Assembly (NCBI GenBank): GCA_002698985.1
Contig: PAAY01000005.1
Span: forward strand, 1 to 44,941
Source of the DNA: Saprospirales bacterium
GTDB taxonomy: Bacteria > Bacteroidota > Bacteroidia > Chitinophagales > Saprospiraceae
Reading direction: 5' to 3'
DNA: 44,941 nt
In this document: positions 16,869-37,358 of the stretch, piece by piece
How the letters are laid out: each line of letters begins with the position of its first letter
How positions within the stretch are numbered: position 1 is the first letter of the stretch
Program-made: the position numbers and the translations under genes
Notes under the pieces: generated by a model
What the model was told of the DNA's origin: nothing
Database searches by the model: none
What the model saw: only the letters and a program-made list of their open reading frames with translations

Positions 16869-17255
16869 GTTTAGCCCGCCTGGCGGCGGGGTTTAAGCAC
16901 CTGCGGTTCGTTTAGGCCCTGCGGGCGTTTAGCCCACCTGGCGGTGGGGTTTAGGCACCTGCGGTGCGTTTACGCCCTTCGGGCGTTTAGATGGCTTCGC
17001 CATGTTTAGATCGCAACACGCAGGTTTCGCTGTAAAATTTAAGGCCGTAGGTTGTTAAACAACGCCGAAGGCATCCTAAACCCCGCCAAAGGCGGTTTAA
17101 ACCCCGCCGAAGGCGGATTAAACAGGCCAAAGGCCTTTAAACGCCCGCAGGGCCTAAACTCCGCCAAAGGCGGACTAAACAGGCCAAAGGCCTCTAAACG
17201 CCCGAAGGGCCTAAACCCGCCAAAAGGCGGACTAAACAATGCCACAGGCATTCAG
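16869..17255. repeat. TAAAC mini-hairpin array A (two half-arrays in opposite orientation)
   Basis: From 16869 to ~17010 units read GTTTAG + palindrome; from ~17056 to 17255 they read TAAAC + palindrome, so the two halves face each other around ~17040. There are about 7-8 and 10 units, each 16-20 bp. Example palindromes are ATGGC-TTC-GCCAT, CCGCC-AAA-GGCGG, CCGCC-GAA-GGCGG, AGGCC-AAA-GGCCT and GCCC-GAA-GGGC. The stem sequence differs between units while the linker and loop type are kept. The array ends at the predicted promoter of the DUF6089 gene. Confidence 0.9.
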
Positions 17256-17263
17256 TAACTTTG
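17256..17263 (+). promoter_or_regulatory. Predicted -7 box for the DUF6089 gene
   Basis: TAACTTTG matches TAnnTTTG exactly and lies ~46 bp before ATG 17309. It begins 23 bp after the last TAAAC of array A. Confidence 0.55.
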
Positions 17264-17308
17264 CCGCCCTCGCACCGTAAGGTGGCAGGACCATCAGCCG
17301 AATCATTC

Positions 17309-18178
17309 ATGAATAACCTCAGGATCGTGACCAGGATCATAGCTATTTCCATTGCCATTTTCACTTTTCTTTCTCCTTCGGTAAATGCCCAGGAAGGCAT
17401 GGAGGCCGGGGGCTGGCTGGGTGTAAGCCACTACTTTGGCGACCTGAACACCAACATGCGCATCGACCACCCGGGAATGGCCGGCGGCCTTGGCGTGCGT
17501 TACAACTTCAACCCGAGGGTGGCCATCAAACTGCATGCGAATGCAGGCACCGTGCAGGCTTATGACTCGGACTCTCCCAACATTTTTGAGCGGGCCCGCA
17601 ACCTCCATTTCAAATCCAACGTGGTGGATGCCGCTTTGCAGATGGAGTTCAACTTCCTGCAATATGAGCACGGCAGCAAGGACTACAACTGGACGCCCTA
17701 CATCTTTCTCGGGCTGGGTGTAACCCACTTCAACCCCAAAGCTCAACTGGACGGCACATGGTACGAGCTGCGCCCCCTCGGCACCGAGGGCCAGTTCAAA
17801 GGCGAGGAGTATTACACCGTGGCCGGCGGCTGGGTGTATGGCATGGGACTCAAAATCGACCTCAGCTATGAGTGGAGCCTCAACATCGACCTCAGTGCCC
17901 GCCGCCTGTTCACAGACTACCTCGACGATGTAAGCACCGTGTATCCGGACCTCGGCGATGTGCAGGACCTGAGAGGGGATTTTGCCGTGCAGTTCGTTGA
18001 CCGCTCACCGGAGCTCTACGCCACCAACCCCGAGTTCTTTTCCAACAACCAACTGGAATACCCCATCGGGGAGGCCGGCCGTCAAAGGGGCAACAGCAAG
18101 ACCCGCGACACTTACGTCTATTTCGGAATCGGCCTTTATTACTACTTTGGCGACATCAAATGCCCTTACGGCCGGTAA
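17309..18178 (+). CDS. DUF6089 outer-membrane beta-barrel (PorG-like)
   Basis: 289 residues from MNNLRIVTRI; an in-frame extension upstream overlaps the promoter and is rejected. The signal peptide ends near residue 27 (SVNAQEG). The rest is an alternating-strand barrel with GGWLGVSHYFGDLN at the start, GLGVRYNFNPRVAIKLHANAG in the first third, and a closing strand TYVYFGIGLYYYFGDIKCPYGR ending in aromatic residues. The DUF6089 (PF19573-type) family includes, as I recall, the type IX secretion protein PorG. The assignment to T9SS is therefore plausible but not proven. Next to the secreted HYR proteins and upstream of a small protein plus TonB receptor. Confidence 0.82.
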   Translation: MNNLRIVTRIIAISIAIFTFLSPSVNAQEGMEAGGWLGVSHYFGDLNTNMRIDHPGMAGGLGVRYNFNPRVAIKLHANAGTVQAYDSDSPNIFERARNLHFKSNVVDAALQMEFNFLQYEHGSKDYNWTPYIFLGLGVTHFNPKAQLDGTWYELRPLGTEGQFKGEEYYTVAGGWVYGMGLKIDLSYEWSLNIDLSARRLFTDYLDDVSTVYPDLGDVQDLRGDFAVQFVDRSPELYATNPEFFSNNQLEYPIGEAGRQRGNSKTRDTYVYFGIGLYYYFGDIKCPYGR

Positions 18179-18219
18179 GCCCACGCTTAGGCAGCTTACC
18201 GCCAAAATGGTAAGCCTGC

Positions 18220-18744
18220 ATGAGACCCGTCATTGCCACCATATTGTTCATCAGTCTGCTTTCGCCCATGCTGTTCACTACGGCCTGGATGCAGCTGCAC
18301 CGCTGGCAGGTGCGGCAGGATTTGAAGGCGGTGCTCCTCTCCGAAACCAACAACCCCAACCTGGTCTGGCTCAGACTTTCCCGGGAGGAGGCTGAAAAAC
18401 TGCATTGGGAAGACAAGCATGAATTCGAATGGAAAGGCAGCATGTACGATGTAGTCAGCATGAAAACTGACGGCGACAGCCTGCACCTGCTTTGCTGGCC
18501 CGACCAGCTCGAAACCGGCCTCGGCCAACAACTGGACCAACTGCTGAATCAACCGGCGGACCCTCAACAGCAGCAAAAACAACTCAACCTGCAGGATTTC
18601 CTCAAGTCTTTACCCAATCTTTCCCTCGCTGCGCAACCGGCCGGCTCGTCGTTTACCGAAGGTGAAAAAACTGACCATCTGGTTATTTTTCCCACTCGCT
18701 TCGCAACTCCCCCACCCGCTCCACCTCCGCAAGCCGTTTCCTGA
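18220..18744 (+). CDS. Small membrane-anchored protein upstream of a TonB receptor, unknown
   Basis: 174 residues. One N-terminal hydrophobic helix (about 3-22) either anchors or exports it. The middle is soluble and charged (LREEAEKLHWEDKHEFEWKG region, with a conserved-looking MYDVVSMKTDGDSLHLLCWPD). The C-terminus is Pro-rich (PPPAPPPQ). Proteins of this size and pattern, with the 'M(Y/F)DVV... L.C..D..E' core, commonly precede heme or metal-type TonB receptors in Bacteroidota. Neither a metal site nor an enzyme motif is evident. Probably co-transcribed with the receptor, 171 bp downstream. Confidence 0.72.
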   Translation: MRPVIATILFISLLSPMLFTTAWMQLHRWQVRQDLKAVLLSETNNPNLVWLRLSREEAEKLHWEDKHEFEWKGSMYDVVSMKTDGDSLHLLCWPDQLETGLGQQLDQLLNQPADPQQQQKQLNLQDFLKSLPNLSLAAQPAGSSFTEGEKTDHLVIFPTRFATPPPAPPPQAVS

Positions 18745-18849
18745 CAACAGTCACAGCCATGCTGCCTGAGAAGCAGGGTCAACAATTTGGCTAGACCCGG
18801 CATCCCTTATTCTCTCCTTTCAGGGAGGTGGATTCTGTCAATTCATGCT

Positions 18850-18900
18850 CCAATCACCTGATAACCCGGAGTCACCAGGTGATTGGTTTGCATGCCAATC
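18850..18900 (+). promoter_or_regulatory. Inverted repeat with an alternative hairpin upstream of the TonB receptor
   Basis: CCAATCACCTG (18850-18860) and CAGGTGATTGG (18876-18886) are a perfect 11-bp inverted repeat with a 15-nt loop. The GATTGG end (18881-18886) can instead pair with CCAATC at 18895-18900 across an 8-nt loop. The second stem ends 15 bp before ATG 18916. It could be an operator or a two-state leader RNA. Confidence 0.5.
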
Positions 18901-18915
18901 ATTCAAACACTTCAC

Positions 18916-21321
18916 ATGAAAAGCATATATACCCTCATCCTTTTCCTCCTCACCCTGCAATGGGTCGCCGCTCAGACCGTCCGTGTGGTGGACGCCGGCA
19001 GCGGAGAGCCCCTCGAATACGTCACCATTTTTGATCCGGAAAGCGGCGCCAATGCCGCCACCGACGAGCGGGGCCAAGCCGACATCAGCGCATTCAAAGG
19101 AGCCACGTCCATAGAGTTTCAACGCCTGGGTTACTCCTCGCTGCGCCTGAGCTATTTCGACCTGGAGCGCAACGATTTCCTCGTAAAAATGGAAGCCTGG
19201 GCCGTTTCGCTGGACCAGGTGGTGGTATCGGCCAGCCGCTGGCGCCAGGCCCGCCGGGAGGTGCCGGGCAACGTCCTGTCCATCAACAAGTCGGAGCTGG
19301 AGCTGAGCAACCCCCAGACTGCCGCCGACCTGTTGGGCAACACGGGAGCGGTGTACATCCAGAAAAGCCAGCTGGGCGGCGGCAGCCCCATGATCCGGGG
19401 TTTTGCCACCAACCGCCTGCTCATCGCCGTGGACGGGGTGCGCATGAACAACGCCATCTTCCGCAGCGGCAACCTCCAAAACATCATCTCCATCGATCCC
19501 TTCGCCGTGGGCAATGCAGAGGTGTTTTTCGGCCCCGGCTCGGTCATGTACGGCAGCGACGCCATCGGCGGGGTCATGAGCTTCAGTACCCTGGCACCCC
19601 GTTTTGCCGAAGGGAAAGAAAAAACCGTGAACGGCCATGCCGCCGCCCGCCATGCTACGGCTAACGGCGAGTTGACCACCCATTTCGACGCTGCCGCCGG
19701 AGGGAAAAAATGGGCTGCGCTCACCAGCCTGACTTACAACCATTTCGGTGACCAGCGCATGGGCCGCCACGGGCCCGACGACTACCTGCGCCCCTGGTAC
19801 GTTGAGCGCATAGACGGGCAGGATGTGGTGCGCAGCAACGACGACCCCCTGGTGCAGCGCCCCACCGGATTCGACATGACCCACCTCATGCAGAAGGTGG
19901 CCTTTCGCCCTTCGGGCAACTGGGAGCTGAGCTACGGCCTGCACTACTCCGCCACCACCGATTACGCTCGCTACGACCGCCTCATCCGCACCCGCAACGG
20001 CTTGCCGCGCAGTGCTGAGTGGCGCTATGGCCCCCAAACCTGGCTCATGAACCACCTGCGGGTGGATCACCACAGCGACGGGAAACTATTCAAAGAAATG
20101 AGCCTGCACCTGGCCCACCAGTTTTTCGAAGAAAGCCGCATCGACAGGGATTTCAATTCCACCAACCGCTCTCACCGGGTGGAAAAGGTGAATGCCTGGT
20201 CGGCCAACCTGGATTTTCTGCTGCCGCTCAGCGATAAAAACCGCCTCCATTACGGATTTGAAGCCGTGTTGAACGACGTGAATTCCACCGGCACCGAGGA
20301 GGACATTCTGACGGGCAAGAAAACCGAAGGCCCAAGCCGCTACCCGCAGGCCACCTGGCAATCCTGGGGGGCCTACCTCACCTGGCAGCGGCAGCTGGCG
20401 CAAAACCTGCGGGGGCAGGCGGGAATCCGTTACAGCAGTTTCGGCATCGACGCCACCTTTGACACGGAATTCTTTCCCTTGCCATTCTCCAACGCCAGCC
20501 TGAACAACGGCGCCCTCACCGGCAGCCTGGGTTTCGTTTTATTCCCTTCGGAAAAATGGACCCTCAGCCTGAACACCGCCACCGGCTACCGCAGCCCCAA
20601 CGTGGACGACATGGGCAAAATTTTCGACTCGGAACCGGGTGCCGTGGTAGTGCCCAACCCCGACCTCAAAGCCGAATACGCCTACCACCTTGAGCTGGGT
20701 GCAGCCCACATTTTCGGCCGCTACCTGAAGGTGGATGTGGCAGCCTACTATACCTGGCTCGACGACGCCCTTGTGCGCCGCAACTACAGCCTGAACGGCA
20801 TGGACAGCATCGTTTACGACGGAGAACTGAGCCGGGTGCAGGCCATACAAAACGCCGCATCGGCCACCGTTTACGGCTTCCAGCTGAACGCTGAACTGAA
20901 GCTGCCGGCGGGCTTCGGCTTCCACGGCAATTTCAATTTCCAGAAGGGCGAAGAAGAACTGGACGACGGCAGCACCAGCCCCTCCCGCCACGCCGCTCCC
21001 TGGTTCGGAGCGCTGCACGCCACCTACCGCACCTACGGCCTGCTGATGGACCTGAACATGCGCTTCAGCGGTGAACGGGCTTTTGAAGACCTGCCACTTG
21101 AAGAGCAAAGCAAGGATTACCTTTATGCCCGGGACGAAAACGGCAAGCCCTACGCCCCCGGCTGGTACACGCTGAATTTCAACGCCCGCTACCAGCTGAA
21201 TGAACAAACCAGCCTGACTGCCGGCATCGAAAACATCCTCGACAAACGCTACCGCCCCTACTCCTCGGGCATCACCGCCCCCGGCAGAAATGTGGTGATG
21301 GCGGTGAGGGTGGGTTTTTGA
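18916..21321 (+). CDS. TonB-dependent outer-membrane receptor, heme/siderophore type
   Basis: 801 residues from MKSIYTLILFLLTLQ; the in-frame extension of 11 residues upstream is unlikely because this ATG begins a good signal peptide (cleavage after ~VAAQ, 19-20). A short CarbopepD-like beta domain (~21-95) precedes the plug, which shows RGFATNRLLIAVDGVRMNN and VFFGPGSVMYGSDAIGGVM. The barrel contains YRSPN and PNPDLKAE, equivalent to the FRAP and NPNL boxes of HmuR-type heme receptors. It ends in a Phe (VRVGF), as barrel proteins do. The substrate is suggested, not proven, by these boxes. Preceded by a small anchored protein and a possible leader switch. Confidence 0.88.
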   Translation: MKSIYTLILFLLTLQWVAAQTVRVVDAGSGEPLEYVTIFDPESGANAATDERGQADISAFKGATSIEFQRLGYSSLRLSYFDLERNDFLVKMEAWAVSLDQVVVSASRWRQARREVPGNVLSINKSELELSNPQTAADLLGNTGAVYIQKSQLGGGSPMIRGFATNRLLIAVDGVRMNNAIFRSGNLQNIISIDPFAVGNAEVFFGPGSVMYGSDAIGGVMSFSTLAPRFAEGKEKTVNGHAAARHATANGELTTHFDAAAGGKKWAALTSLTYNHFGDQRMGRHGPDDYLRPWYVERIDGQDVVRSNDDPLVQRPTGFDMTHLMQKVAFRPSGNWELSYGLHYSATTDYARYDRLIRTRNGLPRSAEWRYGPQTWLMNHLRVDHHSDGKLFKEMSLHLAHQFFEESRIDRDFNSTNRSHRVEKVNAWSANLDFLLPLSDKNRLHYGFEAVLNDVNSTGTEEDILTGKKTEGPSRYPQATWQSWGAYLTWQRQLAQNLRGQAGIRYSSFGIDATFDTEFFPLPFSNASLNNGALTGSLGFVLFPSEKWTLSLNTATGYRSPNVDDMGKIFDSEPGAVVVPNPDLKAEYAYHLELGAAHIFGRYLKVDVAAYYTWLDDALVRRNYSLNGMDSIVYDGELSRVQAIQNAASATVYGFQLNAELKLPAGFGFHGNFNFQKGEEELDDGSTSPSRHAAPWFGALHATYRTYGLLMDLNMRFSGERAFEDLPLEEQSKDYLYARDENGKPYAPGWYTLNFNARYQLNEQTSLTAGIENILDKRYRPYSSGITAPGRNVVMAVRVGF

Positions 21322-21324
21322 GGG

Positions 21325-21463
21325 GGATTATGGAGGGTTATGGCCCCGATATTTATCGGGGATGGAGGGTTATGGAGGGTTATGGCCCCGATATTCATCG
21401 GGGATGGAGGGTTATGGAGGATTATGGAGGATTATGGAGGATTATGGAGGATTATGGAGGATT
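21325..21463. repeat. 10-bp GGATTATGGA tandem repeat with two CCCCGAT palindromes
   Basis: A ~44-bp segment (ATGGAGGGTTATGGCCCCGA onward) is present twice, each with a hairpin CCCCGAT...ATCGGGG (21344-21361, 21386-21403). Four to five exact 10-bp units (ATTATGGAGG) follow, in register from 21411 to 21460. The same CCCCGAT...ATCGGGG hairpin occurs at 42110-42129. Located between the TonB receptor stop and the oxidoreductase. Confidence 0.85.
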
Positions 21464-21547
21464 ATATGGGTTTAGCAGGAATACGCTGTTAACTCTGTTT
21501 TCAACTCCGGTTACTCTGTGGTTAATTCAGGATAATAAACCTAAAGC

Positions 21548-24175: not shown

Positions 24176-24206
24176 GGAACTGAGAAGCACCCTGCTAGCA
24201 CCTAAT

Positions 24207-24402
24207 AAACATGGCGAAGCCATTTAAACTCCGCCGCCAGGCGGACTAAACCCACCGCAGGTGTTTAAACAGGCCGAAGGCCTTTAAACGCCCGAAGGGC
24301 CTAAACATGGCGAAGCCATCTAAACTCCGCCGCCAGGCGGACTAAACGCCCGCAGGGCCTAAACGCACCGCAGGTGCCTAAACCGGCCAAAGGCCTTTAA
24401 AC
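24207..24402. repeat. TAAAC mini-hairpin array B (about 10 units)
   Basis: Units are TAAAC + palindrome, e.g. ATGGC-GAA-GCCAT (24211 and again ~24304), TCCGCC-GCCA-GGCGGA (twice), ACC-GCA-GGT, GGCC-GAA-GGCC, GCCC-GAA-GGGC, GCACC-GCA-GGTGC and GGCC-AAA-GGCC. A two-unit block (ATGGC hairpin followed by TCCGCC hairpin) is repeated within the array. Lies between convergent genes. Ends at a long palindrome. Confidence 0.9.
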
Positions 24403-26380: not shown

Positions 26381-26495
26381 TAAACCTCTCTAAACCCCTC
26401 TAAACCTCTCTAAACCCCTCTAAACCTCTCTAAACCTCTCTAAACCTCTCTAAACCTCTCTAAACCTCTCTAAACCTCTCTAAACCCCTCTAAAC
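26381..26495. repeat. 10-bp TAAACCTCTC tandem repeat (11 units)
   Basis: Eleven exact 10-bp units in register from 26381 to 26490, each TAAACCTCTC or TAAACCCCTC, and a partial twelfth. It sits between the convergent ends of recO and thrS. The heading word TAAAC is the same as in the hairpin arrays; here no palindrome follows. Confidence 0.95.
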
Positions 26496-26503
26496 CAGCT
26501 GAT

Positions 26504-28444
26504 CTACTCCTCCTCTATCAACCCTTTGAACCAGTCGATAAATTCATCGAGGGCTTTGGCGCCGAGGTCGCCTTCACCTTGTTTGCGGATGCCAACGGTG
26601 CCGGCTTCGGCTTCCTTCTCACCCACGATGAGCATGTAGGGGATCTTTTTCAGTTCCGCATCGCGGATTTTGCGGCCGATGCTTTCGGTGCGGTCATCGA
26701 TGCTGCCCCGGATGTTGTTGAGGGCCAGTTTCGACTGCACCTCTTTGGCATAGTCGAGGTATTTGTCGCTGATGGGCAGCAGGATGTACTGTTCCGGCGT
26801 CAGCCAGAGGGGGAACTTTCCGGCGCAGTGTTCGGTCAGCACGCCGATGAAGCGCTCCATGGAGCCAAACGGAGCGCGGTGGATCATCACCGGCCGGTGT
26901 GGCTGGTTGTCCGAACCGATGTATTCCAGTCCAAAGCGTTCGGGCAGGTTGTAGTCCACCTGGATGGTACCCAGTTGCCAGGAGCGGCCCAGGGCATCCT
27001 TCACCATGAAGTCCAGTTTGGGACCGTAGAAAGCGGCCTCACCCAGTTCGGTAATGGTTTCGAGGCCCACCTCTTCGGTGGCTTCGATGATGGCACGTTC
27101 GGCTTTTTCCCAGTTTTCTTCCGAACCGATGTATTTCTCCTTGTCCTCCGGATCGCGCAAGCTGATCTGGGCCGTGTAATCGTCAAATCCCAGTTTGCGA
27201 AGCACATAGCGTGTCAGGTCCAGCACGGAGAGGAACTCATCTTTCAGCTGGTCTGGTGTGCAGAAGATGTGGGCATCGTCCTGGGTGAATCCGCGCACCC
27301 GGGTCAGGCCGTGCAGCTCACCGCTCTGCTCGTAGCGGTAAACGGTGCCAAATTCCGCTATGCGCAATGGCAGTTCCCGGTATGAGCGGGGTTTGTGTCC
27401 AAAAATCTCGCAGTGGTGCGGGCAGTTCATCGGCTTCAGCAAGAACTCCTCGCCCTCTTTGGGCGTATGGATGGGCTGGAAGCTGTCCTTGCCGTACTTC
27501 TCGTAGTGGCCGCTGGTCACGTAGAGGTCTTTCTTGCCCAGGTGCGGGGTGATCACGGGCTGGTAACCACGTTTGATCTGCTCCTCTTTCAGGAACTCCT
27601 CCAGCCTGCTACGCAGGGCGGTACCCTTCGGCAACCAGATGGGAAGGCCGGCACCCACTTTGTCCGAGAACATGAAGAGTTCCAGTTCGGCACCCAGCTT
27701 GCGGTGGTCGCGCTTTTTGGCCTCTTCGAGCAACTCCAGGTATTCGGTCAGTTCCTTTTGTTTCGGGAAAGTGACTCCGTAGATCCGGGTCAATTGCTGG
27801 CGCTTTTCGTCGCCACGCCAATAGGCCCCTGCCACAGCCATCAGTTTAACGGCTTTGATTTTGCCGGTGTCAGGAATGTGAGGGCCCCGGCAGAGGTCGG
27901 TGAAATTGCCCTGCTGGTAAAAGGTGATCGTTCCGTCCTCCAGCTCGGAGATCAGCTCCAGCTTGTATTCATCACCCTTTTCTTCGAAATACTTCAGGGC
28001 ATCGGCTTTGCTCACCTCTTTGCGGATGTAGGGGTTGGCCTGTTTAGCCAGTTCCTTCATCTTCTGCTCGATTCTCGGCAGGTCATCGATGGAGATCTGG
28101 CGTCCACCGGGATCAACATCGTAATAAAAGCCATTCTCGATGGGCGGTCCGATGCCGAACTTGATTCCTGGGTAGAGGGCTTCCAGGGCCTCGGCCATCA
28201 GGTGGGCCGAAGAGTGCCAGAAAGTGCTTTTGCCCTCCTTGTCGTTCCAGGTAAGCAGCTGCACCGTGGCGTCTTCATTGATGGGGCGGGTGGCATCCCA
28301 CACCTCCCCGTTGATTTTTGCGGAGAGGACATTCCTGGCCAGCCCCTCGCTGATGGATTTGGCGATGTCCATCGCCGTGGTCCCTTTCGGGTATTGCCTG
28401 ACACTGCCATCAGGCAGCGTGATGTTGATCATTTGAGATTCCAT
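26504..28444 (-). CDS. thrS: Threonyl-tRNA synthetase
   Basis: 646 residues, complete. Charges tRNA-Thr. TGS domain at ~5-65 ([18 protein letters not shown]). The editing/second additional domain follows with [11 protein letters not shown] (~76-86) and the RGPHIPDTG block. The class II catalytic core has the Zn ligand Cys in [14 protein letters not shown] (~340) and motif 2 [25 protein letters not shown], then motif 3 [17 protein letters not shown]. The anticodon-binding domain covers ~545-646 ([11 protein letters not shown] ... [11 protein letters not shown]). No leader T-box is expected in this phylum. A -7 box lies ~115 bp upstream. Confidence 0.98.
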
Positions 28445-28662: not shown

Positions 28663-28782
28663 TAAACGCTGCCGCAGGCAGCCTAAACCAGCCAAAGGCT
28701 TTTAAACACTGCCGCAGGCAGTCTAAACTCGCCAAAGGCGATTAAACGCTGCCACAGGCAGCCTAAACAGCCCAAAGGGCCA
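28663..28782. repeat. TAAAC mini-hairpin array C (6 units)
   Basis: Units TAAAC + palindrome: CTGCC-GCA-GGCAG (three variants incl. ACA loop), AGCC-AAA-GGCT, CGCC-AAA-GGCG and GCCC-AAA-GGGC. It directly precedes the promoter and TPP riboswitch of the thiamin-type receptor. Confidence 0.9.
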
Positions 28783-28790: not shown

Positions 28791-28798
28791 CCGCACGT

Positions 28799-28881
28799 CT
28801 CATTTGGGGTGCCCTGTCCGTTGGCGGGGCTGAGATCATACCCATCGAACCTGCCCGGGTAATTCCGGGAAGGGAAATGAG
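28799..28881 (+). ncRNA. TPP (THI-element) riboswitch aptamer
   Basis: The conserved THI-box core is visible: GGGGTGCC, then GGGGCTGAGATCATACCC, ATCGAACCTG, and CGGGTAAT..CCGGGAAGGG. P1 is CTCATTT (28799-28805) with AAATGAG (28875-28881), seven perfect pairs. This class binds thiamin pyrophosphate and usually switches downstream expression off. It lies 117 nt before a TonB-dependent receptor start. Confidence 0.96.
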
Positions 28882-29000
28882 TGCTCACCAATTATTGCAG
28901 CCACTCATTTAAGATAGGTAACCCATCGTGTTTCGTGCCTGACAGTCAGACCGGCGTCTGGCGGCACCATGTCTAACCAACCAAATTTTACTACACGATG
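28875..29000 (+). promoter_or_regulatory. Expression platform: anti-P1 hairpin and start-codon-masking stem
   Basis: AAATGAGTG (28875-28883) also pairs with CACTCATTT (28902-28910), nine perfect bp, mutually exclusive with P1. CATCGTGT (28924-28931) pairs perfectly with ACACGATG (28993-29000), whose last three bases are the receptor start codon. Inside this loop are GTGCC/GGCAC (28935-28939 / 28963-28967) and CAGAC/GTCTG (28947-28951 / 28956-28960). No T-tract is present, so control of translation rather than termination fits. Predicted by eye only. Confidence 0.5.
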
Positions 29001-31466
29001 AAAAAGTTACAACTGGCGGCGCTGCTGCTCTTCCTGGCCTGCTATGGCCACGCTCAAATCAAAATTCTCGGAAACATCACCGACACCCGTGGGGTGCCAT
29101 TGCCCGGAGCCACCATTCAGGTGCTCGGCACTGCCAAAGGCACCACCAGCGATCTGGAAGGAACCTTTGAGCTGATGTTGCCGGAAGCAGGAAGTTACGA
29201 CTTGCAGGCATCCTATGTCGGCTACAAAACAGCCACCCTCCGCCTCAACATTGCCGAAGGAGAAGAGGTAAAAGAGGTGCTCATAAAGCTGGAAGAGGAG
29301 GCCACCGTGCTGCAGACCCTGACCCTGAAAGCCACCCGCATGGGCGCTTCCACCCCCTTTGCCACCCAAGTGATCACCAAAGAGGAGCTGGAAAGCAAAA
29401 ACCTGGGACAAGATGTTCCATTTCTGCTGGAGGATGCCCCCTCGGTGGTGGTGACCTCCGACGCCGGCACCGGCATTGGCTACACCGGCATCCGCATCAG
29501 GGGCACCGATGCCACCCGCATCAACGTGACCATCAACGGGGTGCCCCTCAACGACGCCGAATCGCAGGGCGTGTTCTGGGTGGACCTGCCCGATTTCGCC
29601 TCCTCAGCCGCCGACATCCAAATCGAGCGGGGAGTGGGCTCTTCCACCAACGGCCCCGGGGCCTTCGGCGCCACCATCAACCTGAACACCAGCCTGCTGG
29701 AACACTCCGAGTACGCCGAAGCCAACCTCGGCATCGGTTCTTTCGGAACCAGAAAGCGGAACTTCAAGTTTGGCACCGGACTGATGCCCTACAAAGGGAA
29801 TCAAGACGTGGGATTTACCCTCGACGGCCGCCTGTCACACATCAATTCCGACGGCTACATCGACCGGGCCCGGGCTGACCTGGAATCCTTCTTTGTTTCC
29901 GGAGCTTTCATCGGCAACAAGTCGGCCCTGCGGGCCAACGTCTTCTCCGGCCACGAGGAAACCTACCAGGCCTGGAATGGCGTGCCGGCCCAGTGGGTGA
30001 ACGACGACAAGCTCCGCCGCTACAACTCCGCCGGCACCGAAAAACCGGGCCTGCCCTACGAAGACGAGGTGGACGACTACACCCAAACCCACTACCAGTT
30101 CCATTTCGACCACCATGTGAACGACCGGCTGGACCTGGGCCTGTCCGCTTTTGCGACGACGGGAAAAGGATTTTTTGAACAGTACAAAGCCGATGAGGAG
30201 CGCTCCCGCTACCTGCTCAACGACACCCTGCCCGACTGCTGCTACGATTTCGTGCGCCGCCGCTGGCTCGACAATGTCTTCTTCGGAACGCTGTGGACCC
30301 TGGACTACCATTCCGACGATGACCGGCTCAACCTCACCCTGGGCGGCATCGTCAGCAAATACTCCGGCGACCACTTTGGGGAACTGATCGACGGGGAACT
30401 GCTGCTGCCCAACCAGTTCGGCCACCGCTACTATTTCTCAAACGGAGAGAAAAAAGATTTCACCACCTACCTTAAATCCCGGTACCGCCCATCCGATGCA
30501 CTGAGCCTCTTCGCAGAACTGCAACTGCGCCGGGTGGACTACCATACGGAAGGCACCAACAACGACCTGCTCGCCTTCAAGGTCAGCGCTGACCACACTT
30601 TTTTCAATCCGAAAGCCGGCTTCGTTTATGAGCCCATACAGGACTGGTTCCTCAACGGCTCTATTGCCGTCGGCCAGCGGGAGCCCAACCGCGATGATTA
30701 CATCGATGCCCTCAACGGGCAGCCCGTAAAGCCCGAAAAAGTAGTTGATTACGAACTGGGCGTCCGCCATGTGGGTCCCTACCACAGCTACGCACTGAAC
30801 GCCTATTACATGAACTACAAAGACCAACTGGTGCTCACCGGCAACATCAACGACGTGGGTGAGGCCATCCGCCAGAATGTGGACAAGAGCTACCGCTACG
30901 GCGTGGAACTCAGCGCCAGTGTGGCACCCGCCAGCCGCCTCACCCTGTCGGGCAATGCCACCCTCAGCCGAAACAAGATCGAAGGCTTCACGGAGTACAT
31001 CGACAACTGGGACACTGGGGAGCAGGAGGTCGTCTTCCACGGCACCACCGACATCGCCTTCTCGCCCAACTTCATTGCCTTCGGTAAAATAAGTTACGAT
31101 CTTTTCGCCAGCCGCCGGGTCGACGCCAACCTTGCTTTCACCCTCAAGCACGTCGGCAAACAGTACATCGACAACACCTCCAACGAAAACACCACCCTGG
31201 AGGCCTACACCGTGGGCGGCCTGCACCTGAAGGTCGGCATCGTCACTTCCCGCTTCGAAGAGGTACTGCTCAACTTCAGAGTGAACAACCTCTTCGATGC
31301 CCGCTACAGCGCCAACGCCTGGACCTACCGCTACATCTCGCCCTCTTACGATGCCCGCCCGGACGATCCCTACGCCCGACTGGAATCAGGCAACACCTAC
31401 AACCTGACGGGCTTCTACCCCCAGGCCGGCCGAAATTTCCTCCTCGGCCTGACGATCAGGATCTGA
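28998..31466 (+). CDS. TonB-dependent outer-membrane receptor, probable thiamin uptake
   Basis: 822 residues. Signal peptide ~1-20 (CYGHAQ). CarbopepD-like domain ~22-105 (GNITDTRGVPLPGATIQVLG). Plug ~115-235 (LEDAPSVVVTSDAGTGIGYTGIRIRGTDATRINVTINGVPLND, then VWVDLPDFASSAADIQIERG-like stretch). The barrel fills the rest and ends in LLGLTIRI. A TPP riboswitch in its leader makes thiamin or a thiamin precursor the likely substrate; TPP-regulated TonB receptors of this kind are known in Bacteroidota. Energised by TonB-ExbBD, not in this window. The gene is alone between promoter and terminators. Confidence 0.9.
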   Translation: MKKLQLAALLLFLACYGHAQIKILGNITDTRGVPLPGATIQVLGTAKGTTSDLEGTFELMLPEAGSYDLQASYVGYKTATLRLNIAEGEEVKEVLIKLEEEATVLQTLTLKATRMGASTPFATQVITKEELESKNLGQDVPFLLEDAPSVVVTSDAGTGIGYTGIRIRGTDATRINVTINGVPLNDAESQGVFWVDLPDFASSAADIQIERGVGSSTNGPGAFGATINLNTSLLEHSEYAEANLGIGSFGTRKRNFKFGTGLMPYKGNQDVGFTLDGRLSHINSDGYIDRARADLESFFVSGAFIGNKSALRANVFSGHEETYQAWNGVPAQWVNDDKLRRYNSAGTEKPGLPYEDEVDDYTQTHYQFHFDHHVNDRLDLGLSAFATTGKGFFEQYKADEERSRYLLNDTLPDCCYDFVRRRWLDNVFFGTLWTLDYHSDDDRLNLTLGGIVSKYSGDHFGELIDGELLLPNQFGHRYYFSNGEKKDFTTYLKSRYRPSDALSLFAELQLRRVDYHTEGTNNDLLAFKVSADHTFFNPKAGFVYEPIQDWFLNGSIAVGQREPNRDDYIDALNGQPVKPEKVVDYELGVRHVGPYHSYALNAYYMNYKDQLVLTGNINDVGEAIRQNVDKSYRYGVELSASVAPASRLTLSGNATLSRNKIEGFTEYIDNWDTGEQEVVFHGTTDIAFSPNFIAFGKISYDLFASRRVDANLAFTLKHVGKQYIDNTSNENTTLEAYTVGGLHLKVGIVTSRFEEVLLNFRVNNLFDARYSANAWTYRYISPSYDARPDDPYARLESGNTYNLTGFYPQAGRNFLLGLTIRI

Positions 31467-31544: not shown

Positions 31545-31933
31545 AGGCATCCAATACGATTTTCGAAATGCTACCCAGGTTGGATGGGTAGGCTCCCTTG
31601 CAGGAGCTAACTTCCGGTTAGCTCCTGTTTTTCTGGTTATCCTTCGTAGGACTTGCAAGTCTGCGTGCCGTAAGTGCGCAACCAAGGGATTCACATAGCG
31701 TACCTACGGCACGCATAGGCCAATTCTTGGCTGCATGCTACAAAGATTTCGTCCCTACGGGACGGGCAAATAACAATTCGGGCTGGCAAGTGTCTTTTTG
31801 TGACTTGAAAAAGTTTTCGGAACACCACACAAGTTGGAGAAGTAGCCCTACTGGGCTGGGTAATTCAGATTGCTTTTCTCTTGCTTTCAGGAATCGGTTT
31901 TCAAATTGAAAGGATAGGAGAAAACGATCTCGC
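31545..31933. other. Palindrome-rich intergenic region with a second terminator-like hairpin
   Basis: It holds CTACCCA/TGGGTAG (31571-31591); CAGGAGCTAAC-TTCCG-GTTAGCTCCTG followed by TTTTT (31601-31632, terminator-like); GCGTGCCGTA (31663-31672) with TACGGCACGC (31705-31714); CGTCCC-TAC-GGGACG (31750-31764); and AGCCC-TACT-GGGCT (31844-31857). No gene is supported. It may be the remains of a mobile or repeated element. Confidence 0.6.
31601..31632 (+). terminator. Second terminator-like hairpin
   Basis: An 11-bp perfect stem (CAGGAGCTAAC / GTTAGCTCCTG), a 5-nt loop and TTTTT. No plus-strand gene reads into it after the first terminator, so it may back it up. Confidence 0.7.
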
Positions 31934-32698
31934 CTAATCAACATTTAAATACAAAATCGGATTGGAGTTCCCTTTCATAAAGTAGTGAGCAACGGACTTA
32001 TATTTATACTTATCCCTAATTTCTTTTGAAGCCAAATTCCCTACAAATTCATACCTGCCCGCCAGGGCTGTTTTATCATGCACTCCTGCAGATAAATTCA
32101 TATCCCTTACGCTAAACGTCTTCCCTGCTTCATACCAATCCAAGATTTCATAGACTTCCTGAATAATTCCTTCATAAACGGCGAAAGCATATTTTGCACG
32201 TTTTGCTCGTACAGGGTTAAGCCTCCATTGTCCCCGTGTAAAATCATAGAGCTCCATTTCAGACATAGAGTATCGAAATGCCTGATTAATCCTGATAAGT
32301 ATTGCAGGTTCACTGATATCGACTTTCTGCCCATCATAAGTAGATATGATTTGATCAACGGTCATCCTCCCATACAATGCACTTTTGTAACCACTTTGCC
32401 GATTGGTTAGATTGTGGATTCTCAACAAATCAATAACAGCAGATTCAACTCTTAAAGCAGTAACCTCATCTTCGAGTCCATGTATCAAAATTTCGATTTT
32501 TGGTTCAAGCCCTTGTCTTCTAATCTCTTTGATAACCCGGGATTTATCAGAATCCACTTCGTCATGCAAATGGGAAAAAACTCTGTTACCTTTTCCTTTC
32601 CCGACATAAAATATTTCACCTGATTCAGGATGAACGTACAAATACACGTAATACTTCAAAGCTTTGGATACAACACTAGAAAACTTCTTTTTTTCCAT
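31934..32698 (-). CDS. GIY-YIG nuclease-like protein (LEM-3/COG3680 type)
   Basis: 254 residues. N-terminal GIY-YIG fold: YYVYLYV (16-22) for the first strand, EIFYVGKGKGNRVFSH (28-43) for the second, Arg60/61 in the helix and Glu85 in LRVESAVIDLL as the metal ligand; then NLTNRQSG. The second domain (~105-215, EPAILIRINQAFRYSMSEMELYDFTRGQWRL ... YAFAVYEGIIQEVYEI) is a small beta domain seen behind this nuclease type. A function in DNA cleavage or modification is expected, perhaps defence or mobile-DNA related, but not shown. A+T-rich, unlike the flanks, suggesting transfer. Confidence 0.8.
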   Translation of the reverse strand: MEKKKFSSVVSKALKYYVYLYVHPESGEIFYVGKGKGNRVFSHLHDEVDSDKSRVIKEIRRQGLEPKIEILIHGLEDEVTALRVESAVIDLLRIHNLTNRQSGYKSALYGRMTVDQIISTYDGQKVDISEPAILIRINQAFRYSMSEMELYDFTRGQWRLNPVRAKRAKYAFAVYEGIIQEVYEILDWYEAGKTFSVRDMNLSAGVHDKTALAGRYEFVGNLASKEIRDKYKYKSVAHYFMKGNSNPILYLNVD

Positions 32699-33026
32699 AT
32701 TCTATTGTGTTACAAAATCACCAGCATGATGTACAATCCTACATCACTTAACTCCTCCCTAAATCGATGCCAGATAGAAGGCCTGAATACAATCAATGAA
32801 ATTTCCCATGATCATTCAATGGTAAAACCCATTCAGATAACACTAAAACCAAACATCTGGCCACATGCTTGTATGACGTTCCCAAGGCTATGCGTTGTCA
32901 AATTTGATTGAACGGTGTCCGTAAAAAAAGTGTTGCCTACCGCATCCCACAAATGAAGGGAACTGGTGAATGTTGGGAAGGGCTGGCTGCGCTGACAGCA
33001 ACTCAAACCATCTTACTCAGTTTCTT
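32699..33026. other. Intergenic, nothing recognised
   Basis: A+T-rich spacer between two minus-strand genes of the island. No repeat, hairpin or reading frame that I would defend. Confidence 0.5.
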
Positions 33027-33797
33027 CTAACAGCATGGAAAATTGAATTTAATTGAGTAGGCATTCTCAGAATCCTTATACACTTCAATTCCACATCCTA
33101 ATCCAATAAATTCTCCCGCACACCTCCCTTCAACTCTGTATGATTTCGGATTCTTCAAGTAATGGTCATTTAAAATGAATATTTCTTCTGGCGCATCTTT
33201 TAAAAATTGATGTATCAAATAGTACACTTCGGAAATTCTTACATTTTTTAAACTCAATTCAGTCGAAGTTCCCTCCCAATACTGATGTTCAATGAGAACG
33301 TGTCCTTCCCGAAAATTCTGAATCCTCATTTCATGTGCAGATGTACCATCCACCCTGTTGGACCACTCAAACATACAGCCAGTTTGTGTAAAATTATCAA
33401 TGGCGTATTGTCTAAGCAATACTGGTAGCCATTGGGAATATTCGAAAGAGCTAGGTGGGACTGTCTTGCCATTTTCTAATAGAGACCTAGCCGGAGGAAG
33501 TGTGCTTAAAAATGCATCAAAAACATATCCTGTTAACCCTTCAGTTGTATGTATCTTCACCCAATTTCCACGAAAGCCAAAGATTGTATCATGTTGGATT
33601 TCAAAATTAGATGTGTCAATGATGCAAACCTTATCATAAGTTTTTAATACACCTATTTTCTCGCCTTTCAAATTTGCTTTGGAGCGAATAGTCAGTCCAT
33701 TTATTGCAACTACATACAATGTATCACCAATTGAGTAATTAACTCCCTTGGAAACAAATGGAAGAATGATGAAAAAGATGGCTATTAATTTTTTCAT
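33027..33797 (-). CDS. Exported SH3b-domain protein, unknown
   Basis: 256 residues. Signal peptide ~1-19 (FIILPFVSKGVNY). An SH3b (bacterial SH3) domain spans ~25-100: IGDTLYVVAINGLTIRSKANLKGEKIGVLKTYDKV ... GNWVKIHTTEGLTGYVFDAFL. It has the usual 'L.VR..P......G.L..G..V' pattern and binds cell-wall or other peptides in relatives. Residues ~100-256 form an alpha/beta domain with scattered Cys (TGCMFEW, GRCAGEF, GCGIEV, FPCC) that I do not recognise. A+T-rich like its neighbour. Confidence 0.78.
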   Translation of the reverse strand: MKKLIAIFFIILPFVSKGVNYSIGDTLYVVAINGLTIRSKANLKGEKIGVLKTYDKVCIIDTSNFEIQHDTIFGFRGNWVKIHTTEGLTGYVFDAFLSTLPPARSLLENGKTVPPSSFEYSQWLPVLLRQYAIDNFTQTGCMFEWSNRVDGTSAHEMRIQNFREGHVLIEHQYWEGTSTELSLKNVRISEVYYLIHQFLKDAPEEIFILNDHYLKNPKSYRVEGRCAGEFIGLGCGIEVYKDSENAYSIKFNFPCC

Positions 33798-33998
33798 TTC
33801 AATTTTTTTAAAAAAAAAGTACTGATGGCCTTTTTAGTTGTGTCCACCTTCCAATAGCGCTGGAAATACTCCTCATGAAACTCGCTCATTAAGTCCTTTA
33901 GGCTGGCAATCATTTAACGCCTTTTACTACAATCAGGATTGGAATAGCTTAACAGGAAAATACAAGGTATCGACCAATCATCCCTCATCCCTCATCCC
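33798..33998. other. Short spacer ending in a 7-bp repeat
   Basis: Mostly featureless A+T-rich DNA. From ~33979 onward it is (CATCCCT)n, ~5-6 copies, running into the 3' end of the subtilase gene. Confidence 0.6.
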
Positions 33999-34021
33999 TC
34001 ATCCCTCATCCCTCATCCCTA
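33979..34021. repeat. 7-bp ATCCCTC tandem repeat overlapping the subtilase stop codon
   Basis: About six copies. On the minus strand it reads GGGATGA repeated and supplies the last codons (GMRDEG) and the stop of the subtilase. Confidence 0.9.
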
Positions 34022-35531
34022 TCCTCACCGCTTCCCCCGCCTGTATCAGTTTCCCAGTTTTCTTCCCCGTTTTGAGTTTTTTACCGGTGGCGTTCAGGAT
34101 GCGGTAGGCTTGTTCGGTGGTCAGGGTTGGGTTGAGGCTTTTGAGGATGCCCACCAGTCCGGCCACGTAGGGGGTGGCCATGGAGGTGCCGCTTTTCAGG
34201 CCGTACTGGCTGCCGGGGATGGCGGAATAGATGGCCACGCCGGGGGCAGCCACGCCCCATTGCAGGTCTTCCACTGTATTGCTGAAGGAGGCCCTGTTGA
34301 GGGCGGTGTCCACGGCAGTAACGGTGATGACACCGGGGGTATTGGCGGGGGCGTAGTTGCGGGCGTTGCGGTTGGAGTTGCCGGCGGCCACCACCACGAT
34401 GGCGCCTTTTTTATTGGCGTATTCCACGGCCTTCTGGTAGGCCCGCTGCTGGCGGTCGGAGCTGGGGCCGCCGAGGCTCATGCTGAGCACATCGGCGCCG
34501 CGGTCGGCGGCTTCCAACATCCCGTTGATGATGGTTCGCTGGGAGCCAAAACCGCTGTCGTTCAGTACCTTGATGCTGGTGATGCGCACATGCTTGTTGT
34601 TGGGTGAGAAGCTGGCGATGCCGATGCCGTTGTTGGACACGGCGCCGGCGATGCCTGCGCAGTGGGTGCCATGCCCCCGGCGGTCGGTGTCGTAGATCTT
34701 TTTCGTGGAGATGTAGTTGGCAGCCAGATCTTCGTGGCCGGCATCCACACCGGTGTCCAGAATGGCGATGAGGGCCTGTTTTTTCGGTTCGGCATTGGCG
34801 AGGAACTTCACCACCTCGCCGACCTTCATTTCCTCGAAGCCCCAGAGCTGGGACACACCAGGGTCGTTCAGTCCAAAGCGGCTGCGGGTGGTGCGGGCTG
34901 TGGTGGCCTCTTCCGGTCCCACGAAGATCTTTTCATTGGCCTCCAGCCATTCCACGGCTTCATTTTCCTGGAGCACGGCCCTCACCTCGTGCAGCAGCTC
35001 TCCGTTTGCCGAAGGAACATCCAAAGCGTAATAGTCGTCCAGGTCGGTGGCCTCGGGATGCGCCATGGTAAAGGCCGGCGTGGCCGTTATATTGAAGCGA
35101 TCGAGGATGGGCTGCACTTCGCTGAGGCTGTGGCCTTCCCGCACTTCTATGAGCAGTTCGGCGGCTTCATCTACCTCCACGGCTTCGGTGAGCACCTCCT
35201 GCGGAAAGGTGCGGGCCAACTCCGGGAAATACCACTTCTTCAGGCTGATGAGCGACACCACCAGAAAAGCGATGTAGGCCCAGGTGACTTTGCGGAACAC
35301 GCTCAACAACAGCGGCAACAAGGCCAGCAACAGCAACTCCCGCAGCAAGGCCGCCAGTTTGTACGAAAAGCTGCCGGAGGCGAACAACCAGCACAGCACA
35401 TAGGCCAGCAAGGCACCGAAAAACACTTTCCGGAACAGCGGCGCTTTCTGCTCGTTGTCACGGAAATAAAACCAGCCGGTGAGGGCACCGAGGGTGAGGA
35501 GGTAAGCGATGGGATATAGGCTCGAGAACAT
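33999..35531 (-). CDS. Membrane-anchored subtilisin-like serine protease (S8)
   Basis: 510 residues. The N-terminus (~5-97) holds about four membrane helices (PIAYLLTLGALTGWFYF, VFFGALLAYVLCWLF, LLRELLLLALLPLLLSVF, WAYIAFLVVSLISL). Then an inhibitor-I9-like propeptide region (~125-205) and the S8 domain with Asp259 (LDTGVDAGH), His287 (HGTHCAG), oxyanion Asn385 (AAGNSN) and Ser450 (GTSMATP), all present. The catalytic domain should face outside or the periplasm. A membrane module in front of a subtilase is unusual. The final GMRDEG comes from a 7-bp tandem repeat, so the natural stop may have been displaced. Confidence 0.92.
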   Translation of the reverse strand: MFSSLYPIAYLLTLGALTGWFYFRDNEQKAPLFRKVFFGALLAYVLCWLFASGSFSYKLAALLRELLLLALLPLLLSVFRKVTWAYIAFLVVSLISLKKWYFPELARTFPQEVLTEAVEVDEAAELLIEVREGHSLSEVQPILDRFNITATPAFTMAHPEATDLDDYYALDVPSANGELLHEVRAVLQENEAVEWLEANEKIFVGPEEATTARTTRSRFGLNDPGVSQLWGFEEMKVGEVVKFLANAEPKKQALIAILDTGVDAGHEDLAANYISTKKIYDTDRRGHGTHCAGIAGAVSNNGIGIASFSPNNKHVRITSIKVLNDSGFGSQRTIINGMLEAADRGADVLSMSLGGPSSDRQQRAYQKAVEYANKKGAIVVVAAGNSNRNARNYAPANTPGVITVTAVDTALNRASFSNTVEDLQWGVAAPGVAIYSAIPGSQYGLKSGTSMATPYVAGLVGILKSLNPTLTTEQAYRILNATGKKLKTGKKTGKLIQAGEAVRIGMRDEG

Positions 35532-35644
35532 GGTGAAATGGTTGAGAGAAGTTTAGAGGGGTTTTTGGGGTTGCCAGCTAAGGTAACCAATGCGGGGCAG
35601 CCTCCGCAAGTGTTTCGACGAAAGAAAGCGGGGCGGGTTACGAA

Positions 35645-37111
35645 TCAATGAGAAGGGTACAATTTTTCACAGAGCCGGCGGAAGCGAACCAGCTTTTGGC
35701 GGTAAATTTCGTGCAGCTCAGGGCGGGGCTGATAGGCCTTTGAAGCGGCGGGTACGAAATGAGCGGGGTAAGATCCCTCCAGGGCGGCTTTGGCCAGCAT
35801 GGCGGCGCCACGGGCGCTGTCGTCGCTGCCGTCTTCGCTGCGCAATGGCCTTCCGAAGACATCGGCAGCCATCTGCAGCCAGGCACCGGAACGTGCGAAG
35901 CCGCCGCCAGCCCGGATCTCATGCACCGGACCGCTGAGCTGCTCCAGCTCTTCCGCCACCAGGGCAATGTTGAGCAGGATCCCTTCCATCACGGCCCGGT
36001 GGAAATGGGCCTTGCCGTGCTGCGGCCGGATGCCGGCAAAGGTGCCGGTGGCCGAGGACTCCCACAGCGGTGCCCGCTCGCCGTAGAGGTGCGGCAGAAA
36101 AAGCGGATCGCCAAGTTCCGGAGGGGCTGCCGACAGAAGCGCTTCCTGCCCGGCTGCATCGGGGATGCCACCGAGCCATTGCTCGCAGAACCACTGGTAG
36201 GCCACTGCCCCGTTGTTGCTGGCGCCGCCGCTGACGTACAATTTTTCCGAAGGGAAGCCCGCTGGCAGGCCGCCTGACAGTAAATAGCTGAAAATGCCGC
36301 CCTGCCCACTGCTGATCTTCTGCGGCCCCGTGATCCGGTAAGCGGCGCTGGTGCCAATGGTGAGCACGCCCGTTTGCCCGTCGAGGACGCCGGCACCCAA
36401 GTTGGCCAGGCAGCCGTCGGAGGCTCCTATGACGATTTTCGTCGCCTCCGGCAATGGCCCGGCTGCCCTGGCTGAAAACAGCTCCAGTGGGCTGCAAAGC
36501 TCCGGCAGGCGGGAGCGCCCGATGCCGCAAAAATCCAATGCCGGCCCATACCAGTCGAGCGCTTCCGCATCGAAGAGTCCGCTGGCGGAGGCCGTGGAAT
36601 GATCGGTGCACCAGCGGCCCGTGAAGTGGTGCATCAGCAGGGCTTTGACATCGGCAAAGCACCGCACCCTGCCAAACAGCTCCGGCTGCGCTTTGCGGAA
36701 CCAGGCGATTTTGCAGAGCGGACTCATGGCATGCACCGGGGTGCCGCTGCGGCGGTAAAAATCCATGGCTTTTCCTTCGCTGCGCAACTGTTCCGCAATG
36801 CCGGCGGCCCGCAGGTCGGACCAGAGGATGCAGTCGCTGAGCAGTTCATCGCCCTCCCCTACCAGGATGAGGCTGTGCATGTGAGTGCTCAGCGCAATGG
36901 CTTCCGGCGGGTTCTCCAGCTCCCGGATCAATGCAGCCAGCAGGCCGTCAACCGCTTCCACAATGTCGCTGCAACGCTGCTCCTGCCGGCCTTTACCGTC
37001 GGAAACGGTGTGCATCGGCCGGCTGCTCCGTGCCAGCACCCGCCCCTCTCCGTCAAAAGCCACGGCCTTTGCGCTGGTGGTTCCCAAATCCAGTCCGATG
37101 GTGTAGGTCAT
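35645..37111 (-). CDS. FGGY-family carbohydrate kinase, gluconokinase/xylulokinase-like
   Basis: 488 residues from MTYTIGLDLGTTSAKA; a longer in-frame start at 37213 runs through repeat DNA and is rejected. ATP-dependent sugar kinase: DLGTTSAK phosphate-1 loop (8-15), SDLR sugar-binding segment, GASDG with the catalytic Asp, TIGTSAAYR, ASNNGAVAYQW, and GERAPLWESSATGTFAG and the GGGFARSGAW adenosine loop. It looks nearest gluconokinases of the GntK/FGGY kind. The precise sugar is unproven, and no other sugar gene lies beside it. A minus-strand TATCTTTC box lies ~20-27 bp upstream. Confidence 0.9.
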   Translation of the reverse strand: MTYTIGLDLGTTSAKAVAFDGEGRVLARSSRPMHTVSDGKGRQEQRCSDIVEAVDGLLAALIRELENPPEAIALSTHMHSLILVGEGDELLSDCILWSDLRAAGIAEQLRSEGKAMDFYRRSGTPVHAMSPLCKIAWFRKAQPELFGRVRCFADVKALLMHHFTGRWCTDHSTASASGLFDAEALDWYGPALDFCGIGRSRLPELCSPLELFSARAAGPLPEATKIVIGASDGCLANLGAGVLDGQTGVLTIGTSAAYRITGPQKISSGQGGIFSYLLSGGLPAGFPSEKLYVSGGASNNGAVAYQWFCEQWLGGIPDAAGQEALLSAAPPELGDPLFLPHLYGERAPLWESSATGTFAGIRPQHGKAHFHRAVMEGILLNIALVAEELEQLSGPVHEIRAGGGFARSGAWLQMAADVFGRPLRSEDGSDDSARGAAMLAKAALEGSYPAHFVPAASKAYQPRPELHEIYRQKLVRFRRLCEKLYPSH

Positions 37112-37130
37112 TTTGAGCGTGTTTTCGGGG

Positions 37131-37138
37131 GAAAGATA
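37131..37138 (-). promoter_or_regulatory. Predicted -7 box for the FGGY kinase
   Basis: Minus strand reads TATCTTTC, one base from TAnnTTTG, ~20 bp before the start codon at 37111. Confidence 0.4.
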
Positions 37139-37195
37139 GGGAGGAGAAATGAGGATTTGAGAAATGAGGATTTGAGGATTTGAGCTAGCTGGCCA

Positions 37196-37358
37196 TAAAC
37201 ATGGCGAAGCCATCTAAACTCCACCAAAGGTGGATTAAACGCACCGTAAGTGCTTAAACGCCGAAGGCAATAAACTTCGCCGAAGGCGAACTAAACCCGA
37301 CGAAGGAGGCTAAACTCTGCCGTCAGGCAGACTAAACTCCGCCGAAGGCGGATTAAAC
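37196..37358. repeat. TAAAC mini-hairpin array D (about 9 units)
   Basis: Units: ATGGC-GAA-GCCAT, TCCACC-AAA-GGTGGA, GCAC-CGTAA-GTGC, GCC-GAA-GGC, TTCGCC-GAA-GGCGAA, an eroded CCGACGAAGGAGG unit, CTGCC-GTCA-GGCAG, TCCGCC-GAA-GGCGGA. Ends 19 bp before the -7 box of the EAD11 protease gene. It lies between two divergent genes. Confidence 0.9.

Follow-up and report, generated by a model that had tools for sequence, protein, structure and literature searches.

Arrays of TAAAC-tagged mini-hairpins with changing stems and a kept loop in a Saprospirales genome

Four loci in a 44,941-nucleotide stretch of DNA from a Saprospirales bacterium (contig PAAY01000005.1 of assembly GCA_002698985.1, positions 1 to 44,941; hereafter the window) carry arrays of very short hairpins, 41 units in total, in which the fixed word TAAAC precedes a small stem and loop. 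The letters of the stem differ from unit to unit, while the pairing of its arms and a purine-N-A type of loop are kept. These arrays are real and unusual, and they are a new form of repetitive extragenic palindromic (REP)-like repeats. The explanation that we tentatively prefer is that they are REP-like tag-plus-hairpin DNA satellites, which would be read as folded single-stranded DNA and spread as blocks. Similar arrays have even got into protein genes of other Bacteroidota, and this suggests a little-studied kind of self-spreading DNA that is read folded and single-stranded.

In the draft genome (G000; 4.83 Mb, 102 contigs), the window corresponds to contig C11. Together with 60 further stretches of this genome it makes up the sequence studied (855,288 bases), which was partly chosen at array sites and is therefore array-enriched. 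A genus-mate belonging to a sister species (G003) was compared throughout. In the whole of G000, the pattern TAAACN{9,18}TAAACN{9,18}TAAAC has 272 matches against 9 for the reversed pattern, the 272 including some hairpin-less arrays (TAAACCTCTC, TAAACCCTACACTC), and TAAACN{1,3}GCCNNAGGCN{1,5}TAAAC has 77 matches against 0. The units are thus commoner than chance, a point on which a preliminary description of this DNA had been made to depend. A census of the 61 stretches yielded 59 runs with at least three TAAAC words. The set used for genomic context consists of the 36 runs with two or more R(N)nA-type hairpins, and the 23 excluded are mostly non-hairpin arrays (TAAACCTCTC, TAAACCCTACACTC) or have too few R(N)nA hairpins. 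Hairpin statistics were drawn from 294 units in runs of mostly long period. A stem of 3 pairs or more is present in 261 of them, and the remaining 33 are either TAAAC words that trail a run or units that have decayed or are of a non-hairpin kind.

The units follow a strict grammar. The stem begins right after TAAAC in 169 of the 261 units and one base later in 62, is 4-6 bp long in 230, and is closed by a C-G pair in 242. Triloops are purine-N-A in 210 of 223 cases and tetraloops purine-NN-A in 25 of 29, mostly GCCA and GTCA, with GNRA in only 3. The loops named in the preliminary description agree with the counts: GAA 88, GCA 55, AAA 49, ACA 10 and G..A tetraloops 18. Its unit length of 16-20 bp is roughly right but slightly narrow, as the common lengths are 17, 19, 21 and 22 nt. 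When units of these four lengths were pooled from G000 and G003, the loop was on-rule in 289 of 303; in the same two genomes, 2 of the 189 units whose stem recurs three or more times have an off-rule loop, all loops counted, and a single stem may carry up to six different on-rule loops. Off-rule loops do occur in G003 (CCA in L235, CAA in L305). Pairs of oppositely oriented arrays less than 500 nt apart are divergent in all four cases.

Several measures indicate that the hairpin fold itself is kept. Compared with dinucleotide shuffles, DNA folding of loci 1-4 gave z = -10.5, -4.15, -4.29 and -4.85, respectively, and at loci 1-3 the best fold also pairs certain neighbouring units with one another. 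In 268 units with a central R..A loop, each arm pairs with its own partner at 3.44 of 4 positions, against 2.09 when arms are re-dealt among units (maximum of 1000 shuffles, 2.28). Among 102 distinct 19-nt units, in which the closing pair is nearly invariant, 90.4% of cells are paired against 59.1% in shuffles, both sides have changed in 168 cells against 47.6, and covariation reaches 0.765 against 0.189, a signal that is lost when the partner is slid (at most 0.202). Two of the five measures applied to these units are level with shuffles, namely double-change pairs (5 against 4.1) and pair types (16 against 14.8). We also took the on-rule units of G000 and G003 and compared their distinct stems in pairs with exactly two differences. 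The two differences fall at paired sites in 122 of 164 comparisons for 19-mers, 17 of 30 for 21-mers, 20 of 23 for 22-mers and 3 of 3 for 17-mers, where 9-14% would be expected, and both stems are Watson-Crick there in 83, 11, 13 and 2 of them, respectively; shared ancestry of the units makes these differences non-independent, yet the effect far exceeds that in shuffles. The claim that structure rather than sequence is kept, with both arms changing jointly, is therefore borne out by arm re-dealing, by the two-site comparison and by covariation. Intermediates with a single mismatch exist as well, the internal mismatches being of A.C type in 17 cases and of G.T type in 9.

Arrays stay in place between the two species while their units turn over. 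Thirteen G003 stretches with arrays were compared, and seven of them align, at about 79-88% DNA identity, to sequence flanking arrays in G000 (L223, both arrays of L214, L218, L224, one side of L226, L216 and window locus 1), and the other six have no flank match within the G000 stretches studied. Window arrays 3 and 4 are also orthologous in G003, and at locus 1 the right half alone is. Some orthologous arrays retain mostly their end units, and L218/L234 and L226/L237 have no unit order in common. In 15 orthologous unit pairs aligned by eye, 11 of 46 loop sites have changed (five first, six middle, no last positions), so that the final loop A is unchanged in all 15. Stem sites changed in 2 of 160 in the same pairs, but picking alignable units favours conserved stems, and only the position of change within the loop is free of this bias. 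Blocks of units are found at unrelated sites too. Across G000 and G003, the order of neighbouring stems shared by loci taken as non-orthologous exceeds that after shuffling within arrays (28 against 13.8, p = 0.0004), G003 loci without a flank match being counted here as separate loci. A 51-nt block occurs identically at two unrelated G003 sites, the start of the array 4 ortholog (C7) and C200:36605; G000 has no array at the counterpart of the latter, which fits a gain in G003 and a loss in G000 alike.

Beyond these two genomes the grammar recurs with other words. A scan of genome contigs with TAAACN{0,3}GCCGAAGGCN{1,4}TAAAC matched at least 108 stretches. Many of the matches listed are from Bacteroidota, including Saprospiraceae, Litoribacter, Flavobacteriales and Bacteroidales, as well as from the related Melioribacteraceae; also among those listed, Idiomarina and a Kiritimatiellae record contain arrays, and some single matches in other phyla look like chance. 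Litoribacter ruber, an environmental relative that has been cultured, is among the carriers of units. Viral contigs gave one match only. The linkers vary by genome and mostly contain AAC (GTCAAC, TTGAAC, CTAAACC, CAAACCA). The preliminary description had asked whether arrays are intergenic only. This holds for G000, where by our own gene calls, made with a score cut, none of the 36 arrays lies inside a gene (a low-scoring 69-codon frame over array 1 was dropped by the cut), but it fails in ruminant-gut Bacteroidales, where arrays do lie inside genes. Among 13 loci from ruminant-gut and other Bacteroidales, picked for looking intragenic, arrays are within long open frames in 10. In one such ruminant-gut relative (the L072 genome), arrays are in frame within the KBL and Era genes, whose proteins have 21 and 17 extra residues, respectively, over the hairpins relative to solved homologs. 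A DapA protein has 5 extra residues in a comparison of this kind, and an O-methyltransferase has its array at a site whose length is variable among homologs. The inserted peptides vary by site, and INAEGNK-like words that recur among them are favoured by the search pattern itself.

One hypothesis that joins these observations is that each unit combines a short hairpin, whose purine-(N)1-2-A loop is closed by C-G, with a constant 5' tag, which is TAAAC in this genome and some other AAC-containing word elsewhere, and that head-to-tail runs of such units would be recognised as a folded single strand on the TAAAC strand. The putative reader would most likely be an HUH/Y1-type single-stranded DNA nuclease, or something with similar rules; since it would need the tag, the loop and the pairing but not the stem sequence, stems could drift via compensated changes. 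Arrays would expand and contract in place through tandem duplication, and the reader may occasionally send multi-unit blocks to new sites, which in some lineages would lie within genes. The step from a structure that is kept to one that is read by a protein is one that we infer. A wider version, in which the arrays belong to a class of selfish DNA across Bacteroidota whose identity is the grammar (AAC tag, any paired stem, C-R(N)nA-G loop), copied via folded single-stranded DNA by the putative reader and writing in-frame peptides into essential genes, is conceivable but appears doubtful to us.

The transposases of REP-type elements (Y1, or REP-associated tyrosine transposases, RAYT) had been named as something to look for, and among the loci and genomes compared none could be tied to these units. 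G000 has one Y1 match (C58; L001, L183), RAYT-like and with repeats of its own. The protein has the YIHQNP motif of subclass 2.6, in which it is probably to be placed, but SHVH instead of NH[LIV]H at the HUH site. Its flanking element has 35 genome copies at no more than 3 mismatches, with a purine-N-A triloop in 33 of them and the foot word GTCA. A reading of TCAAC as the tag of these repeats, which would have made the tag a shared one, was rejected, as the AC belongs to the stem. Of the hairpins with stems of at least 6, 88 of 198 in 21 Y1-bearing loci have a C-R(N)nA-G loop, as do 20 of 149 in 29 control loci; the signal is due to repeated copies at about eight loci, and some of the control loci contain arrays. 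Several results weigh against the hypothesis above. TAAAC stands at the foot of an on-rule hairpin in none of the 21 Y1-bearing loci, and among a second set of 20 Y1 loci one has a single TAAAC with an AT-rich hairpin. No Y1 match (E<=0.001) was obtained in four unit-bearing drafts (G061 with 19 unit matches; G060, G066 and G070 with 2 each), and G001, with 7 Y1 matches, has no TAAAC triplets. TAAAC triplets are mostly not above the reversed control in 60 relatives. In the four relatives with an excess that were tested for the hairpin unit, G003 gave 49 against 1, and G010, G026 and G028 gave none. The shared-block test in G000 alone reached p = 0.051, and the head-to-tail arrangement, with hardly any single units, departs from REPs, which are singletons or inverted dimers and are rarely arranged head to tail. 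With the tag absent from the feet of on-rule hairpins at 21 Y1 loci and four unit-bearing drafts without a Y1 match, we rejected Y1/RAYT as a demonstrated driver. The loop rule is common with Y1-adjacent repeats and the tag is not, so that the arrays may be said to work like a REP rather than to be one.

Alternatively, the arrays could be a protein-free satellite that maintains itself through replication slippage together with quasipalindrome correction, in which template switching within a hairpin copies changes from one arm to the other; loops of great stability would then survive because only those fold often enough for correction. This agrees with the near-exclusive occurrence of units in arrays (lone TAAAC-plus-hairpin units outside TAAAC runs number 3, inside the 0-3 range of four control words, with 15 for TCAAC), with the mismatched intermediates, and with unit number changing in place, CACCC being present once in G000 (L216) and three times in G003 (L241). 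It also agrees with L224:2848-3220 (minus strand), where a block of 8 units is duplicated in tandem; between its two copies there are three loop changes, a compensated change of one pair, and single uncompensated changes in a stem and in a tag. On the other hand, it predicts neither that a fixed tag and R-N-A loops should go together on one strand, nor that a genome's loci should have a common tag, nor that copies should occur inside genes and at unrelated sites, and loops of the inverted type (T-N-pyrimidine) are scarce (TTC once and TCT once among the listed triloops). We consider this account rather unlikely, though it comes next after the reader hypothesis.

It is a further question which molecule folds. 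The units could act at the RNA level, as transcribed hairpins that end or protect transcripts. A GNA triloop is, on the complementary RNA, the C-UNCG-G tetraloop, a very stable RNA loop, which makes this a rival to be taken seriously, and the excess of A.C over G.T mismatches (U.G on the complement; no significance test) leans the same way. Among pooled units, G-first triloops are likewise more frequent in antisense (81%, 44/54) than in sense orientation (63%, 65/103), but compared by array the share does not differ (p = 0.35), and an orientation effect at the RNA level was dropped. A-first loops (62 of the 210 R-N-A triloops) and the GCCA and GTCA tetraloops fit neither UNCG nor GNRA, the tetraloop that RNA would favour; d(GNNA) tetraloops are a known stable DNA class. 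ViennaRNA energies do not distinguish the triloops. The TAAAC orientation relative to flanking genes is mixed (++ 16, -- 11, +- 7, -+ 2 for the 36 arrays), so no single transcript sense is clearly favoured, and intrinsic terminators are not evident, as each unit is followed by the next TAAAC and not by a T run. Arrays 1 and 3 adjoin a promoter-like TAnnTTTG, but a promoter link is not general: the word comes after only 8% of the arrays (3 of 36), and 5.4% of intergenic 80-mers have it too. Taken together, RNA-level elements seem improbable; the asymmetry between strands and the tetraloops outside GNRA favour single-stranded DNA over RNA, and the simplest account is a DNA hairpin of the TAAAC strand formed while it is single-stranded. 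No significant replication-strand bias was found: for 23 of the 36 arrays TAAAC is on the side of negative GC skew (p = 0.13); the 13 of 16 seen at |skew|>0.03 are weak, since the cut was picked afterwards. Least probable to us are chromosome-organisation sites resembling bacterial interspersed mosaic elements, bound by a nucleoid or topology protein and kept for that use. The conservation of array sites between two species in every gene setting would suit them, but arrays occur inside genes of relatives, and none was seen in genus-mates at site 1 (9 readable loci) or site 3 (10 loci, two of them short; L264 and L273 have no usable upstream DNA). Only at site 1 of G009 (L274) did inspection by eye confirm synteny on both flanks; the array is missing there, but a promoter-like TACCTTTG and the end of the left gene are retained. 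We know of no such binding protein here.

Among known systems, REPs and their TnpA-REP enzymes (RAYT groups 3 and 5; subclasses 2.5 and 2.6) are closest. They share with the array units a fixed 5' foot word, a short perfect hairpin, key loop bases and tolerance of stem changes (PMC8266576; PMC6006769). Group 3 TnpA-REP enzymes cleave only if the 5' foot word is present; they also require certain loop bases and perfect pairing, but put up with many changes in the stem (PMC8266576). Subclass 2.6 (RAYT group 5) is mostly from Bacteroidetes and flanked by "atypical secondary structures" (PMC6006769). Like REPs, the array hairpins are short, of high copy (261 in the arrays read) and mostly intergenic. 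The tag, however, is TAAAC (the word searched for) instead of GTAG/GTGG or CGTC; and GTAG-type REPs flank a RAYT gene with the same repeat, whereas no TAAAC units with such a gene were found in 21 Y1 loci. CGTC REPs are reportedly without an associated RAYT gene. Rickettsia palindromic elements (RPE) and intragenic GTAG/CGTC REPs are likewise palindromic and in frame in unrelated protein genes (PMC10969869, PMC3733652), a likeness that holds only for the relatives with arrays in KBL, Era and DapA. RPE are described there as about 150 bp long, in contrast to tandem units of 17-22 nt with variable stems, and the array-encoded peptides differ between sites, with no conserved peptide of the RPE type. 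Hairpin-forming repeats of sponge mitochondria show recurrent intergenic invasion by structurally and compositionally divergent hairpins, but are organellar (PMC2800124). Extra-stable d(C-GNA-G) mini-hairpins have a loop and closing pair identical to those of the array units, so that the assignment of the loops to this DNA class in the preliminary description fits, but they are a physical motif and not a genomic element; a d(GCA) triloop has a published Tm of 68.9 C with C-G closing and 48.9 C with G-C (PMC5815330). No description of TAAAC arrays was found in the literature searched, by title and abstract opening and with limited terms. Hundreds of units retain their pairing and their purine-N-A loop but not their stem letters, and the arrays would in this way be a natural, replicated in vivo mutation experiment. 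They make it testable whether living cells read extra-stable DNA triloops as folded single strands, and by what route short repeats that lack a linked transposase spread and get into genes.

In the window, all four arrays lie where the preliminary description had placed them, with corrections of detail; a handful of the 41 units are imperfect. Array 1, described as a single array, is in fact two directed away from each other. Its left half (16869..17008, 7 units) has TAAAC on the minus strand, directed towards 16757, and its right half (17056..17254, 10 units, plus strand) adjoins a promoter-like TAACTTTG and has its G003 ortholog in L242. At the site of the left half, G003 (L242:3150-3320) has tandem plus-strand TGGCC-GCA-GGCCA hairpins linked by TCAACATTTCAACA, a second dialect of the grammar in the corresponding place. 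Array 2 (24206..24402, plus strand, 10 units) starts at 24206 and not at 24207; it lies between convergent genes, and G003 synteny is broken across it, 24168 and 24437 matching separate contigs. Array 3 (28663..28781, plus strand, 6 units; G003 ortholog in L251 and L299) lies between divergent genes, a thrS-like gene at 26504-28444 (minus) and a TonB-dependent receptor gene at 28998-31466 (plus), the latter preceded by a thiamine pyrophosphate (TPP) riboswitch (Rfam RF00059) at 28795-28892 on the plus strand. Array 4 (37196..37358, plus strand, 8 units) has its G003 ortholog in L305 and includes an imperfect unit at 37292-37310, CCGAC-GAA-GGAGG, with tandem G.A mismatches. The CCGAC-NAA-GGAGG unit is kept in G000 and G003 and has been copied (L305, L299) with loops GAA, AAA and CAA; it may form sheared G.A pairs.

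Other repeats accompany the hairpin arrays. Hairpin-less TAAAC arrays of 10-bp TAAACCTCTC and 14-bp TAAACCCTACACTC units lie in the window at 26381-26500, 42386-42425 and 42130-42171 (minus strand) as well as elsewhere in G000, and the word TAAAC is common to both kinds of array. Several arrays (L214:2958-2982, L233, L230 and window 24181-24205) are preceded by a GAGGAACTGAGG-like repeat or a GCTAGC-like word, which is perhaps part of the inserted block. A dispersed repeat at 21353-21537, composed of GGATTATGGA runs and an AACTCTG-rich block, has at least 24 further matches in G000 and many in G003. The final 79 bases of the window (44863-44941) are 93-100% identical to seven places in G003, in genomes that otherwise differ by about 15%; this is probably the contig-end margin of a repeat that has moved in the recent past.

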